The notes under the pieces are model-generated. The model made no database searches and had not been told where the DNA came from. It saw only the letters and a list, made by a program, of their open reading frames with translations. This document shows, piece by piece, positions 18,426-28,640 of a stretch of 64,000 bases of DNA. Each line of letters begins with the position of its first letter. The first letter of the stretch is position 1. This DNA comes from Fervidibacillus halotolerans (GTDB lineage Bacteria; Bacillota; Bacilli; Bacillales; Caldibacillaceae). Location of the stretch: positions 698,001 through 762,000 of the forward strand of contig NZ_CP106877.1 in the NCBI RefSeq assembly GCF_026547205.1. The letters run 5' to 3'. Position numbers and translations under genes: made by a program.

Positions 18426-18449
18426 TGATTAAAAAAGAATACTTAAAGT

Positions 18450-18576
18450 TTTCTAGGGTTCCGCAAATGATGAATTGGTCTGGTCCGAGAGAAAACTCAC
18501 AGCGAAATCGCTGTGCCACGGAGGGATAAAAGCCCGGGAGATTCTGTGTATTTCAAACAGTATCTCTTGGGTTTTT
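18450..18576 (+). ncRNA. Guanidine-I (ykkC) riboswitch with terminator
   Basis: The conserved ykkC blocks occur in order: TTCTAGGGTTCCG at 18451-18463, GGTCTGGTCCGAGAG at 18478-18492, then ACGGAGGGATAAAAGCCCGG at 18518-18537. A hairpin (ACTCACAGCG/CGCTGTG region) sits between. The aptamer is followed by an expression platform in which CCCGGGAGAT (18533-18542) pairs with ATCTCTTGGG (18562-18571), then six T residues: an intrinsic terminator that overlaps the aptamer 3' strand. Guanidine binding would prevent terminator formation and turn on the ykkCD exporter genes directly downstream. Identification rests on near-perfect consensus and on context. Confidence 0.96.
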
Positions 18577-18600
18577 TAAGTTTTGGGAGGTGTAAAGAGA

Positions 18601-18938
18601 TGAATCGCCAATGGCAAAAAGTGTTGATTGCCGCTTTGTTAGAAGTGTTTTGGGTAATGGGGTTAGCCCACGCCTACGATGTTTTCACATGGGCTGGAAC
18701 GATTGTTGCGTTATTGATTAGTAATTATTTGATGATTACGGCGGCACAAGTTCTACCGGCTGGCACCGTTTATTCCGTTTTTGTCGGATTAGGGACAGCG
18801 GGTACGGTGATTGCCGATATTCTTCTGTTTGGAGAACCGTTCGAATGGTTAAAAATGTTGTTCATTTTATTCATCTTAGTCGGTGTTGTCGGATTGAAGT
18901 TAATTACAGATGAGAAACAAGAAGCGAGGAATGAGTAG
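18601..18938 (+). CDS. ykkC: Guanidinium exporter SMR subunit, YkkC
   Basis: A 112-aa small multidrug resistance family protein with four membrane helices. The ATG at 18601 follows GGGAGGTG. The essential membrane-embedded acid is Glu15 in AALLEVFWVMGL, which binds guanidinium and protons in turn. LPAGTVYSVFVGLGTAGTV is the conserved helix-3 region. Together with the next gene it forms the YkkCD pair, heteromeric proton-coupled exporters. The guanidine-I riboswitch in front confirms the physiological substrate class. A hydrophilic tail TDEKQEARNE ends the protein, and the next gene begins two bases after the stop codon. Confidence 0.93.
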
Positions 18939-18940
18939 AA

Positions 18941-19255
18941 ATGGCGTGGATTGCATTAATTTTGGCCGGATTATTTGAATCTTTCGGTGTTGCGATGATG
19001 AATCAAGTACAGAAAACGAAAAACTTTTTTACTATATTTTTATTAATTAGTAGTTTTGGTACTAGTTTTTTTCTATTAGGGTATGCCTTACGATTTTTGC
19101 CGATGGGAACGGCCTATGCGATTTGGACAGGAATCGGAGTCGTTGGTGGTACAATTTTCGGTATGATTTTTTATGGGGAATCAAAAGACGGGATTCGAAT
19201 TTTCCTCATCGGCATTATTTTAAGTTCGGTCATTGGATTAAAGCTTTTATCGTAA
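18941..19255 (+). CDS. ykkD: Guanidinium exporter SMR subunit, YkkD
   Basis: A 104-aa partner of YkkC, four helices. Glu13 in AGLFESFGVAMMN is the counterpart of the ion-binding glutamate. LPMGTAYAIWTGIGVVGGTI is the standard SMR helix-3 motif. Start ATG lies two bases past the ykkC stop with GAGGAATGAG upstream, so translation is coupled. The two proteins probably insert with opposite topology to form one antiparallel transporter, as shown for paired SMR proteins. Guanidine produced in metabolism would be expelled from the cytoplasm. Confidence 0.93.
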   Translation: MAWIALILAGLFESFGVAMMNQVQKTKNFFTIFLLISSFGTSFFLLGYALRFLPMGTAYAIWTGIGVVGGTIFGMIFYGESKDGIRIFLIGIILSSVIGLKLLS

Positions 19256-21050: not shown

Positions 21051-22793
21051 TTGAGTGCAATTATTGTTGCATTGCTAGGATTTTTCGTATTTCTTTTAGG
21101 GTATCGGTATTATTCCAAGTTTATTGCAGAGAAAATTTACAAACTAGATCCGAACTATGTGACACCAGCACATCAGTACAACGACGGGGTAGATTACGTT
21201 CCAACGAATAAATTCGTCCTATGGGGTCATCACTTCACATCGGTTGCGGGAGCTGCTCCGATTCTTGGACCTGCCATTGCCTTATATTGGGGATGGTTGC
21301 CTGCATTTTTATGGGTAATTTTAGGCACGGTTTTTGCAGCAGGGGTCCATGATTTCGGAACATTGGTTCTTTCCGTCCGACATAAAGGCCAGTCGGTAGG
21401 AACGATTGCCGACCGTTTGATCGGTAGAAGTGGGAAATTATTGTTTTTATTTATTATTTTAATTCTTGTATTAATGGTGAATGCGGTATTTGCTTGGGTT
21501 ATTGCCAACTTGTTTATTAGCTATCCATCCAGCGTTTTTCCGGTTTTATTGCAAATTCCATTGGCCATTGCGATCGGTTACATGGTTTATAAACGGAAAA
21601 CGAAAATGCTCGTTCCATCTCTAATCGTTTTAGCAATTATGTATATTGCTGCCATCGCGTCCGCCCAATTTGAGTTTTTGCAAATCGACCTTGTTAAGTA
21701 CATGGGTGGTGAAGAAGGAGAAGGGCTTTTCGGATTAGGGGTCGTGTCGACGGCATTTTTCATTTGGATTATATTTTTAATGGTGTATTCCTACATCGCT
21801 TCCATATTACCCGTTTGGAAATTGTTACAACCGAGGGATTTTATTAATTCCCATCAACTTGTTGTCGGTTTAGCGATTTTGTACTTAGGGTTATTTTTCA
21901 CAAATCCGGAGTTAACAGCACCGATTGTGAATGAAAATCCCGATCGTTCTTGGTTGCCCCTATTGTTTATTACCGTTGCTTGCGGTGCCATCTCCGGTTT
22001 TCACGGTTTAGTTTCATCAGGTACATCGGCGAAGCAATTAGATAAGGAAACGGATGCCCGCTTCGTAGGGTATTTCGGTGCTGTCGGAGAAGGATTATTG
22101 GCCCTTGTTTCCATTCTTACGGTTGCAACATTCTTTTCAAATACGGATGCCTTTTTTGCCACCTATGCAAGTTATAATGATGCCAATGCAGCTGGTTTGA
22201 ATACGTTTGTCGAAGGCGCTTCCGTTTTAGCTGGTGGATTAGGAATCCCATCCAGTATTGCTATTACGATCGTTTCCATTATCGTCGTCAGTTTTGCTGC
22301 TACGACATTAGATACGTCTGTTCGTCTAATGCGCTACATTATTAGTGAATTAGGAACGGAATATAAAATTCCAACATTGTCGAAAACCCATGTTGCTACA
22401 TCGATTGCTGTTCTTTCCAGTGCAGCACTCGTATTGCTACCAGAAGGTCCAAAAGGGTTTGGCTCTGGAGGATACTTAATTTGGCCTTTGTTCGGAACAT
22501 CCAATCAATTATTAGCAGGTATTAGTTTAATGTTAATTTCCATATGGCTGAAACGGTTAGGAAGAAATTATGCGTTTACTTTAATTCCAATGATATTCCT
22601 TTTATTCATGACGATGTACGCCATGTTTCAACAAGTATTTTTCCAATGGGCAGCTTGGGGGACGAATACGAACATGCTTCTATTCGTATTAGGTGCAATA
22701 ATTTTCGCCTTTGCCCTTTGGATTGCAATTACAGCTTTCCGAATGTTAACGAAAAAGTATGGAGACCCGATTGACCAGAACAAAGCAATGTAG
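21051..22793 (+). CDS. cstA: Carbon starvation protein CstA-type transporter
   Basis: A 580-aa polytopic membrane protein with about 16 hydrophobic segments. The start is TTG with GGGGAGGGAG upstream. CstA family motifs include FLLGYRYYSKFIAEKIYKLD, a GHHFTSVAGAAPILGPAIA block, GTVFAAGVHDFGTLVLSVRH and SGFHGLVSSGTSAKQL. CstA and YjiY/BtsT proteins take up pyruvate and have been linked to peptide use when preferred carbon is absent. It is a single-gene unit between a well-formed promoter with a cre-like operator and a terminator. Family assignment is firm; pyruvate as substrate is inferred from characterised relatives. Confidence 0.9.
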   Translation: MSAIIVALLGFFVFLLGYRYYSKFIAEKIYKLDPNYVTPAHQYNDGVDYVPTNKFVLWGHHFTSVAGAAPILGPAIALYWGWLPAFLWVILGTVFAAGVHDFGTLVLSVRHKGQSVGTIADRLIGRSGKLLFLFIILILVLMVNAVFAWVIANLFISYPSSVFPVLLQIPLAIAIGYMVYKRKTKMLVPSLIVLAIMYIAAIASAQFEFLQIDLVKYMGGEEGEGLFGLGVVSTAFFIWIIFLMVYSYIASILPVWKLLQPRDFINSHQLVVGLAILYLGLFFTNPELTAPIVNENPDRSWLPLLFITVACGAISGFHGLVSSGTSAKQLDKETDARFVGYFGAVGEGLLALVSILTVATFFSNTDAFFATYASYNDANAAGLNTFVEGASVLAGGLGIPSSIAITIVSIIVVSFAATTLDTSVRLMRYIISELGTEYKIPTLSKTHVATSIAVLSSAALVLLPEGPKGFGSGGYLIWPLFGTSNQLLAGISLMLISIWLKRLGRNYAFTLIPMIFLLFMTMYAMFQQVFFQWAAWGTNTNMLLFVLGAIIFAFALWIAITAFRMLTKKYGDPIDQNKAM

Positions 22794-22806: not shown

Positions 22807-22838
22807 GAAAGGGATCGATGGACTTGATCCCTTTTCCT
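22807..22838 (+). terminator. Terminator of cstA
   Basis: AAAGGGATC at 22808-22816 pairs with GATCCCTTT at 22826-22834 over a 9-base loop, followed by T-rich sequence, just after the cstA stop. Confidence 0.88.
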
Positions 22839-22943: not shown

Positions 22944-23201
22944 ATGTTGGAAAAATTGAAAAAGATTATTCAATTTTATGAAGAAGTGCTTTCCCTTCCC
23001 CACCGTACGGAAGTGGCTAGGGAATTGCGGGAAGAAGAGGATGTTTTTTTCCTTTTGTTGTTCTCCGAAATGGTAGGTATTCCGAATCCAGCTTACTATT
23101 ATACATTAGAGTTGTATCCATACATGATTGAAAAATTTCATGATTGGCATTTACGGATGGGGATGGAAAAGTCCCCGTTATCCGGGATTCGTTGCTGCTA
23201 A
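22944..23201 (+). CDS. Small CC-terminal protein (cory-CC-star type)
   Basis: An 85-aa protein ending in Cys-Cys directly before the stop (GIRCC). I recognise the type as the 'cory-CC-star' proteins, named for that C-terminal pair and typically encoded next to an ArsA-family ATPase, as here (17 bases downstream). It starts at ATG with AGAAGGGAG upstream. The sequence has a helical N-terminus (LEKLKKIIQFYEEVLSLPHR), an acidic EEED stretch, a short hydrophobic VFFLLLFSEMVGIPNP, and a YYYTLELYPYM motif. The vicinal cysteines could bind a metal or metalloid or form a redox pair. The biochemical role is not known to me. Confidence 0.75.
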   Translation: MLEKLKKIIQFYEEVLSLPHRTEVARELREEEDVFFLLLFSEMVGIPNPAYYYTLELYPYMIEKFHDWHLRMGMEKSPLSGIRCC

Positions 23202-23218
23202 GAAAAGGGGAAGATTTG

Positions 23219-24142
23219 ATGGAAGAATTAAAAAAGACGATCATTTTTGTCGGTGGTAAAGGTGGAGTGGGAAAAACAACAATCGCTGCAGCCATTTCGA
23301 TGAAACTTTCTGATGAAGGGAATAAAACGTTGCTTATTTCCACGGATCCTGCCCATAATTTAGGAGATCTTTTTGGTCAACGAATAGGTGGAAAGATCAA
23401 TCAAGTAAAAGAAAACCTATATGCATTGGAGATCGATCCGGAATTAGAAACGACAAACTATATTAATCAAGTAAAGGAAAACGTACAAGGTTTAGTGAAT
23501 CCGACGATGATGGAAGAAGTATATCGAATGCTTGATACAGCAAAGGCATCGCCTGGGGCCGACGAAGCAGCGCTTTTCGATCGAATCATCTCCATTATCC
23601 TCGATGAAAAACCAAATTTTGATAAGATTATATTCGATACGGCACCGACTGGACATACGATTCGCCTATTAACGTTACCAGAGTTAATGAATGTTTGGAT
23701 TGAAGGTTTATTAATGCGGAGGAAAAAGACGAGGGATAATTATGTTCAATTATTAAATGATGGCGAACCGATAGAAGATCCGATTTATGACGTGCTCAGG
23801 AAGAGAAGGGACCGTTTCCGAGAGGCGAGATCCATTTTATTAAACCACGATGAAACAGCATTTTTATTTGTTTTGAATCCGGAACGATTGCCGATTATGG
23901 AAACGGAAAAGGCTACCCGTTTACTCGATCAATATCATTTGCACGTAAAAACATTGGTCGTCAATAAAGTATTGCCAGAACAGGTTGAGGGAGACTTTTT
24001 GCAGGAACGAAAAAAACATGAGAAAGTACATTTGGAATGGATTAATCGAACATTTCAAAATAAGCAACTCATTTTCATCCCATTTTTTTCAAAGGATATA
24101 ACGACTAAGGAACAATTAAGATTGGTTAGTGAGTATTTATAA
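23219..24142 (+). CDS. ArsA/Get3 family ATPase
   Basis: A 307-aa single-domain ATPase of the ArsA/TRC40 group; ATG at 23219 with AAAAGGGGAAG upstream. The deviant Walker A loop is GGKGGVGKTTIAAAI near residue 12. Switch I is STDPAHNLGDLF and switch II region is FDTAPTGHTIRLLTLPELM, all diagnostic. Only one ATPase domain is present, so it should work as a homodimer. The Cys ligands for arsenite of true ArsA and the CxxC zinc site of Get3 are absent. It forms an operon with the CC-tail small protein. Proposed work ranges from tail-anchored protein targeting to metalloid handling; neither is shown by sequence here. Confidence 0.88.
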   Translation: MEELKKTIIFVGGKGGVGKTTIAAAISMKLSDEGNKTLLISTDPAHNLGDLFGQRIGGKINQVKENLYALEIDPELETTNYINQVKENVQGLVNPTMMEEVYRMLDTAKASPGADEAALFDRIISIILDEKPNFDKIIFDTAPTGHTIRLLTLPELMNVWIEGLLMRRKKTRDNYVQLLNDGEPIEDPIYDVLRKRRDRFREARSILLNHDETAFLFVLNPERLPIMETEKATRLLDQYHLHVKTLVVNKVLPEQVEGDFLQERKKHEKVHLEWINRTFQNKQLIFIPFFSKDITTKEQLRLVSEYL

Positions 24143-27744: not shown

Positions 27745-28047
27745 ATGAGTAAAGTATTGGAGTCCTTTTTCAGTTACTTGCTATCGAATGCCCGAATTAT
27801 TAAACCTGAAAATGTTTCGAAGGAGGAAGTGATCCAAGAAATAAAAGCGGAGATTTCAGAGATTGTTTCAGAATGGAAAAGAATACAAAAAGAAAATGAA
27901 AATGAAATCAAGAATAGCACTGATTTCCATCCTCTCTTAACACAGTATATAGCGTTCCGTATATGGTCATTCAAATATTTTTCAGGCGGTTCGGATAGTA
28001 ATCAACATGTTGACCTAAAATTTGTCATTAGCCCCCCGATTACTTGA
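27745..28047 (+). CDS. Hypothetical protein divergent from the Rgg regulator
   Basis: 100 aa, ATG with a perfect AAAGGAGG Shine-Dalgarno. The sequence is charged and mostly helical (VLESFFSYLLSNARIIKPEN; VIQEIKAEISEIVSEWKRIQ). No family was recognised. Its last residues (GGSDSNQHVDLKFVISPPIT) differ in character and the gene ends near an IS256 remnant, so its 3' end may be truncated or replaced. It might be the target of the neighbouring Rgg-type regulator (inference from divergent arrangement). Confidence 0.55.
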   Translation: MSKVLESFFSYLLSNARIIKPENVSKEEVIQEIKAEISEIVSEWKRIQKENENEIKNSTDFHPLLTQYIAFRIWSFKYFSGGSDSNQHVDLKFVISPPIT

Positions 28048-28202
28048 CGACGGCAAAGAAATAGCTTTTAAGTTCATATAGCGTTATAGACTATTTATAA
28101 ACAACATTTTGGAGGAGAAATCATTATAGAGTGAACTAGGTGAAGCCGTGGCAAATTTCACTTTGAGAAGCAAAATCCATATAAGCCTTAGAGCGGATGC
28201 AG

Positions 28203-28640
28203 AGCAAGTGGGATAAGTCTGATCCACGTGTCATTGAATCAGTGATGAACAATGAACAGATTCTAACATTTTATGATTTTCCAGCTTCCATACGTCGCAG
28301 TATCTACTCAACAAACTTGATTGAAGCTTTTAACAAAGGAATCAAACGATATGTTAAATGTAAATAACAATTCCCGAACGAAGAATCGTTAGAACGCTTT
28401 CTCGCAAAACGGTTTCTAGATTATAATCAAAAATTTGGCATACGTTGTCATCGGGGGGTAAAAAGGCGAAATCAGAATTGATACAGATGTTTGAAACACT
28501 AGAAGGTTAAAGTGTAGCACTAATCCGCCATCCTTGACCTTGTTTACGGTCGCGGTGGAATTGGCGGATGGGAAAAATAATGCCTTGTGCAACCTATCTA
28601 CTGGAACAGGGTCATTTACACAAAATTATTGACACACCCA
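28203..28640 (+). pseudogene. IS256-family transposase remnant with right end
   Basis: The plus strand encodes WDKSDPRVIESVMNNEQILT, then FYDFPASIRRSIYSTNLIEA and FNKGIKRYVKCK, a stop codon (TAA near 28367), and, in the same frame, QFPNEESLERFLAKRFLDYN. This is the C-terminal part of IS256-type (MULE-like) transposases, where the stop replaces a Glu codon; a further frameshift follows at the GGGGGG run near 28453. The N-terminal two thirds are missing. Downstream GGTCATTTACACAAAATTAT at 28609-28628 with TGACAC looks like the right terminal repeat. It is an inactive relic. Confidence 0.8.

Follow-up and report, generated by a model that had tools for sequence, protein, structure and literature searches.

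The window, a 64,000-nucleotide stretch of the Fervidibacillus halotolerans genome (contig NZ_CP106877.1, positions 698,001 to 762,000), carries a locus of three same-strand genes that encode a CstA-family transporter, a small protein ending in two cysteines and an ATPase of the ArsA/Get3 type. In window coordinates, its features are as follows.

21051 to 22793, plus strand: gene of the CstA-family transporter (580 aa, Cory-type CstA subtype; PF02554, 492.8 bits)
22807 to 22835, plus strand: terminator-like hairpin of 12 bp followed by a T-rich stretch, between cstA and the small-protein/ATPase pair
22944 to 23201, plus strand: gene of the small protein, Cory-CC-star (putative CstX; ATG start, 85 aa; NF041419 match)
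23193 to 23198, plus strand: codons of the terminal C84 and C85, followed by TAA, as read in the sequence
23219 to 24142, plus strand: gene of the single-domain ArsA/Get3-type ATPase (ATG start, 307 aa, cysteine-free; TIGR00345, PF02374)
23252 to 23278, plus strand: codons of GGKGGVGKT, the deviant Walker A motif in the ATPase, as read in the sequence

The first-pass annotation had singled out the small gene and the ATPase gene, and its description of both was accurate. The 85-aa product ends in SGIRCC followed by the stop codon, its ORF stops 17 bp before the ATG of the ATPase gene, and the ATPase, said to lack arsenite-site and zinc-site cysteines, contains no cysteine at all among its 307 residues. 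The cstA gene directly 5' of the pair had been left out. The hairpin downstream of cstA folds with −15.8 kcal/mol (z −1.56); its support is modest because 16 of 200 shuffled sequences fold as well, and a pattern scan did not list it. Given this hairpin, the pair may be transcribed partly apart from cstA. Elsewhere in the window, a Guanidine-I riboswitch (89.1 bits) lies 5' of two small ORFs, 141 and 104 aa long (18442 to 19255), presumably a paired SMR-type guanidine exporter, and two short ORFs at 27745 to 28367 resemble, as a sequence impression, fragments of a broken transposase.

With 127.6 bits against a cut-off of 80, the small protein falls in the NCBIfam family NF041419, 'cory-CC-star', and is called Cory below; a Pfam search gave no match. 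Profile searches of the window's genome returned one Cory match and none to the Sel_put family described below, and Haloferax appeared as a weak control match in the Cory search. We assembled 194 Cory proteins from 111 loci of the window's order, the best 80 of at least 537 named loci, the window and two plasmid loci. All 194 (160 distinct sequences) end in RCC, and cysteine accounts for 0.37% of the residues outside the tail. The invariance of the ending, together with the scarcity of cysteine elsewhere, therefore argues that the tail is not there by chance. An AlphaFold2 model (mean pLDDT 61.5, pTM 0.38) consists of three long helices, one short helix and an unstructured tail, and was too weak for a fold search. 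A search of solved structures gave no convincing relative of Cory (best E 0.23), and PADLOC, used to look for a defence role, gave no match for it. We found no publication under the name 'cory-CC-star' and no published test of the role of the cysteine tail, which is predicted to form a reactive end with redox or metal-binding chemistry.

The arrangement of the three genes was followed in 299 genomes of the window's order. Cory is present in 112 of them, and all 112 loci were read (30 from the search, 81 fetched, and the window). A second set consisted of the best 80 of at least 537 named matches; because species overlap, the two sets are not independent. All 111 non-window order loci have a CstA gene upstream of cory in the same orientation, as do 79 of the best 80 of at least 537 named loci. 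The ArsA-type gene lies downstream of the small gene in 111/111 and 80/80 of the same two sets. The sole exception is Salinicoccus albus, among those best 80 of at least 537, where a gene for 444 aa takes the position of cstA. Median gaps are about 100 bp between cstA and cory and 20 to 26 bp between cory and arsA, with outliers of up to about 1.1 kb. The same gene order, with genes overlapping or nearly touching, is found on alphaproteobacterial plasmids of Pseudochrobactrum and Paracoccus (two loci read out of five records found). This survey bears out the proposed co-occurrence of the small gene and the ATPase gene. The notion of a two-part system stands as far as their linkage goes, but not in its number of parts, since CstA is the third member.

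The first-pass annotation knew of no established function for the pair. The pair itself is not new; apart from the NCBIfam entry for the small protein, the three-gene set has been published. In the portions available of their paper, Castillo and Saier (2010; PMC2963123) described a CstA-CstX-ArsA operon, counted 26 CstA-ArsA associations across bacteria and archaea, 24 of them including CstX, and found that the CstA, CstX and ArsA trees largely match, as expected of co-evolving proteins. They proposed that CstX couples ArsA to CstA, and reported that CstX never occurs without CstA. From its size, position and partners, we infer that Cory is the published CstX. The module is thus already known, and the observation made in the window is real and very highly conserved. 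The portions examined of PMC2963123 do not mention the CC tail, and YbdD has no occurrence in its main text.

The E. coli proteins YbdD and YjiX, small partners of CstA and BtsT, both belong to PF04328 (Sel_put) and end in ARCC and MRCC, respectively. The ybdD gene lies 3' of cstA; yjiX lies 3' of btsT and is followed by yjiA, which encodes a CobW-type P-loop GTPase, so that a nucleotide-switch protein recurs at this locus. According to the portions available of PMC5847655, pyruvate uptake relative to the wild type was 20% on loss of ybdD, 13% on loss of cstA and 25% in the double mutant, and full CstA-dependent pyruvate uptake requires ybdD. We found no published explanation of how YbdD works. 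Among the 299 order genomes, 273 have a CstA of some subtype and 46 have Sel_put, which lies directly downstream of a CstA subtype of about 700 aa in 46 of 46. No genome has both Cory (112) and Sel_put (46), where 17.2 would be expected to (P 4e-11 if genomes are independent); this mutual exclusion may come partly from shared descent. In one genus, four species have Cory and four others Sel_put, and the choice of small partner can therefore differ between close relatives.

Homology between Cory and Sel_put was considered and is unproven. Comparison with the PF04328 profile gave an hhalign probability of 1.9%. The local alignment covers 12 columns, and shuffled controls scored as high in 3 of 60 cases with a narrow profile and 4 of 60 with a wide one; for the global alignment, column-shuffled controls scored as high in 1 of 60 (narrow) and 50 of 60 (wide). 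The window protein does not match PF04328 in the Pfam search, and a search of solved structures gave no convincing relative of Sel_put (best E 0.66). What is new is an RCC ending common to Cory and YbdD/YjiX, two families that exclude one another and go each with its own CstA subtype; in the literature as far as it was accessible, we found nothing that links CC tails of different families. This common tail is what makes the module worth following. CstA-family carriers are common and E. coli CstA needs YbdD. That another family of different build, also with the RCC end, stands in for YbdD elsewhere makes the tail a specific suspect that experiments can address.

Two further CstA subtypes occur in these genomes. 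Among five listed loci of the subtype of about 600 aa, none shows a small partner, and four have a neighbouring gene for what we take to be a LytTR-like regulator. The subtype of about 540 aa adjoins a conserved protein of about 175 aa, of no recognised family, in 5 of 5 listed loci (L238, L239, L241, L243 and L244), and NF041239, a 'CC/Se motif' protein, is encoded nearby in 3 of 3 loci tested. The protein of about 175 aa was also seen with a CstA near a CstX-like-ArsA pair (L311). No ArsA-like or YjiA-like gene was detected near 30 Bacillales Sel_put loci (1.5 kb on each side), 8 loci of the 600-aa subtype or 10 of the 540-aa subtype, in a search that recovered YjiA at the E. coli locus as a control. 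Going by the 30 Sel_put loci, such an NTPase is therefore not needed by every CC-tail partner.

Residue C311 of CstA, conserved in 161 of 163 sequences, was examined as a possible partner of the tail and rejected. All CstA subtypes in the alignment have it, among them the 600-aa subtype without a recognised small partner, and it is therefore not specific to CC-tail systems. A sequence pattern for C311 missed 1 of 81 Cory-type CstA proteins and caught 2 of 7 from tail-less systems; alignment settled those cases. A solved-structure search with the window CstA gave no E-value below 0.1. Against NF033934, 'KCU-star family selenoprotein' (cut-off 85), YbdD reaches 70 bits and YjiX 61.9 bits; both align to its last position, where the KCU-star name implies selenocysteine at the C-terminal place. 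A search for KCU-star in 199 genomes of the phylum gave no match, and no selenocysteine was observed in this analysis.

The ATPase was assigned by two profiles that span nearly its whole length, TIGR00345 GET3_arsA_TRC40 (277 bits, cut-off 135) and PF02374 (272.4 bits). Its best solved relatives are 5zme (ARSA1), followed by 3zq6 and 3ug6, and PADLOC gave two weak matches (22.5 and 18.7 bits). Among 193 ArsA partner proteins, residues 12 to 19 are at least 98% conserved, 132 proteins are free of cysteine and no alignment column exceeds 20% cysteine; CxxC occurs in 0 of 178 distinct partners.

Samples of the phylum revealed more distant relatives of Cory. One sample of 199 genomes contained 15 with a match, including two with Cory proper; a wider profile matched 20 of 348, which comprise two with Cory proper, seven with relatives ending in DWCC, ten with tail-less relatives and one (G605) whose tail was not read. 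Six distant relatives scanned against NF041419 reached only 21 to 54 bits. A single-domain ArsA-type gene lies within about 0.6 kb of the Cory relative in 19 of the 19 genomes with a readable contig, G586 being cut off; six of the seven DWCC genomes have it, and the remaining one ends at the contig edge. A same-strand cstA adjoins the pair in both Cory genomes and in 10 of the 11 other non-DWCC genomes (G605 included); in G592, cstA lies about 1 kb off in the opposite orientation. Tail-less relatives thus occur in CstA-ArsA operons that are otherwise similar. CstA was not present in the stretch read of any of the seven DWCC genomes (up to 1.5 kb on each side in three, about 2 to 7 kb in four). 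All four DWCC genomes checked have CstA genes elsewhere, and the six of these CstA loci that were read, a part of the total, have no adjoining Cory-like gene. The pair may therefore have work beyond CstA. The link between the small protein and the ATPase is thus the steadiest one, and both the transporter and the CC tail are variable. A gene for a predicted metal-binding DUF2284 protein was seen 5' of the DWCC-ArsA pair at two loci (L270 and L272). In one family (f57), four genomes have an additional copy that is tail-less and lacks an ArsA gene within 1.5 kb. At two loci of this family (L274 and L275), of the order cstA-cstX-arsA-arsA, a second Cory-like protein with the ending HAPHIH is encoded a few kb away.

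We give about even credence to the reading that Cory is an accessory subunit of the CstA transporter, that the Get3-like ATPase handles it, and that its CC tail is an end that reacts or binds metal. CstA would be a secondary transporter from the family through which E. coli takes up pyruvate, and Cory would be a dedicated soluble subunit whose role at this CstA subtype is that of YbdD at E. coli CstA. The ATPase, probably a dimer, would act on Cory as an ATP switch rather than serve as the motor of an arsenic pump; most likely, it would load Cory onto CstA or cycle it off. This takes in the other suggestion of the first-pass annotation, that the small protein is the client of the ATPase. The two terminal cysteines would give Cory a reactive end with redox or metal-binding chemistry. 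The reading builds on the genes themselves, the invariant tail, the strict linkage, the match of small protein to CstA subtype and the mutual exclusion of the two CC-tail families, and on the parallel with YbdD and YjiX. Speaking against it are the failure of profile comparison to connect Cory with Sel_put, the Sel_put loci with no ArsA- or YjiA-like gene, the DWCC genomes where no CstA was seen in the stretch read, the tail-less relatives beside CstA and ArsA, and the share that common descent may have in the mutual exclusion. Protein contact, the direction of ATPase action and the tail chemistry are all predicted here, and PMC5847655, in the portions available, itself calls for an interaction test. 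If the reading holds, a group of bacterial Get3-like ATPases gains a likely client beyond arsenic resistance.

Castillo and Saier (2010) saw the module differently, with ArsA energising transport by CstA and CstX as the coupling linker. This agrees with the single operon and the co-evolving trees in the portions available of PMC2963123, and with the strict linkage of the three genes in the loci counted here. However, protonophores inhibit uptake by E. coli CstA, which was taken as driven by the proton motive force (portions available of PMC7730263), and direct ATP-driven transport is less likely on that account. The CstA loci of the Sel_put (30), 600-aa (8) and 540-aa (10) types that have no ArsA-like gene also speak against it, as do the seven relatives without an adjacent CstA in the stretch read. 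We regard ATP coupling as possible but rather unlikely.

In another reading, the CC tail would sense redox state or metal and turn CstA on or off, and the ATPase would only build or recycle the complex. Such a thiol switch fits the invariant CC at the very end of Cory and the alignment of YbdD/YjiX with the end of the KCU-star selenoprotein model, which lies below the cut-off and hints at a reactive end. The 'CC/Se motif' protein near another CstA subtype (three loci tested) also suits it. In the portions available of the respective sources, YjiA prefers zinc (PMC7895991) and COG0523 proteins carry CXCC (PMC2770081). Against these points, we found no metal or redox data on Cory, tail-less relatives occupy otherwise similar CstA-ArsA operons, KCU-star is absent from the 199 phylum genomes, and C311 is common to the aligned CstA subtypes with or without a CC partner. 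Overall, we hold the switch to be improbable. A more far-reaching idea, to which we assign quite a low probability, would make Cory and YbdD/YjiX interchangeable partners of CstA subtypes. Their C-terminal dithiol (Cys-Sec in KCU-star, by its name) would work in transport itself, for example by binding the imported keto acid in a thio-adduct or by carrying a metal, and a nucleotide-switch protein would load or reset the tail, a part played by the ArsA/Get3-like ATPase in this module and by YjiA in E. coli.

The first-pass annotation had offered that the small protein supplies the thiol site of the ATPase. If so, ATPases of systems that lack the tail should have cysteines of their own. We aligned 24 ATPases (that of the window, 17 and a further 6) from tail-bearing and tail-less systems to look for such compensating cysteines. 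None of the 24 has CxxC, and a common cysteine pair did not emerge, which weakens the thiol-lending idea and goes against its simple form. Subsets have single cysteine positions in common: one near residue 22 of the window ATPase in 9 of the 24 (six tail-bearing DWCC, three tail-less), one near residue 70 in 3 and one beyond the C-terminus of the window ATPase in 4, the last two groups all tail-less. Arsenic-related neighbours were sought with one probe each for what we take to be ArsD-, ArsR- and Acr3-like proteins, drawn from one arsenic-type locus in these genomes; both control loci were recovered, and no match was found in the 80 named Cory loci (best 80 of at least 537). The two loci of two-domain-type ArsA that were read have arsenic-type neighbours and are not located with a Cory gene. 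An arsenic role for the Cory-ArsA module is thus unlikely. Defence against arsenite, antimonite or oxidants, with Cory giving the ATPase its missing thiol site, would explain the pairing of a cysteine-free ArsA-family ATPase with a dithiol protein, but is very improbable in view of the constant CstA partner, the empty probes at those best 80 of at least 537 loci, the two arsenic-type ArsA loci away from Cory genes and the lack of a common cysteine pair in the ATPases of tail-less systems.

We also compared the module with known systems. The ArsA arsenical pump ATPase shares its superfamily with the window ATPase, but has two domains and the cysteines C113, C172 and C422, in contrast to the window ATPase with its one domain and no cysteine; the window ATPase falls short of TIGR04291 (163.8 bits, cut-off 650), and the probes found no arsenic neighbours at the Cory loci (best 80 of at least 537). 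Get3/TRC40, including archaeal Get3-type proteins, has in common with the window ATPase a single ArsA domain, a KGGVGKT P-loop, a conserved DTAPTGHT stretch and close solved structures. Get3/TRC40 has a CxxC zinc site at its dimer interface. This motif is missing from the window ATPase, which sits with CstA, and, unlike for Get3/TRC40, we know of no tail-anchored client for the Cory-linked ATPase.

YbdD/YjiX resembles Cory as a small gene after a CstA-family transporter with an RCC end, followed in the case of YjiX by a P-loop NTPase; it differs in being shorter, in going with another CstA subtype without ArsA, and in showing no significant homology to Cory. The published CstA-CstX-ArsA operon has the same three kinds of gene as the window locus, with Cory as the putative CstX. 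In contrast to the rule that CstX never occurs without CstA, as stated in the portions available of that paper, seven of our genomes carry a CC-tail relative whose surroundings, as far as they were read, contain no CstA. In the window, CstA adjoins the pair on the same strand, and the ATPase and small protein of 307 and 85 aa correspond to the published single-domain ArsA of about 300 to 330 aa and small protein of about 90 aa.
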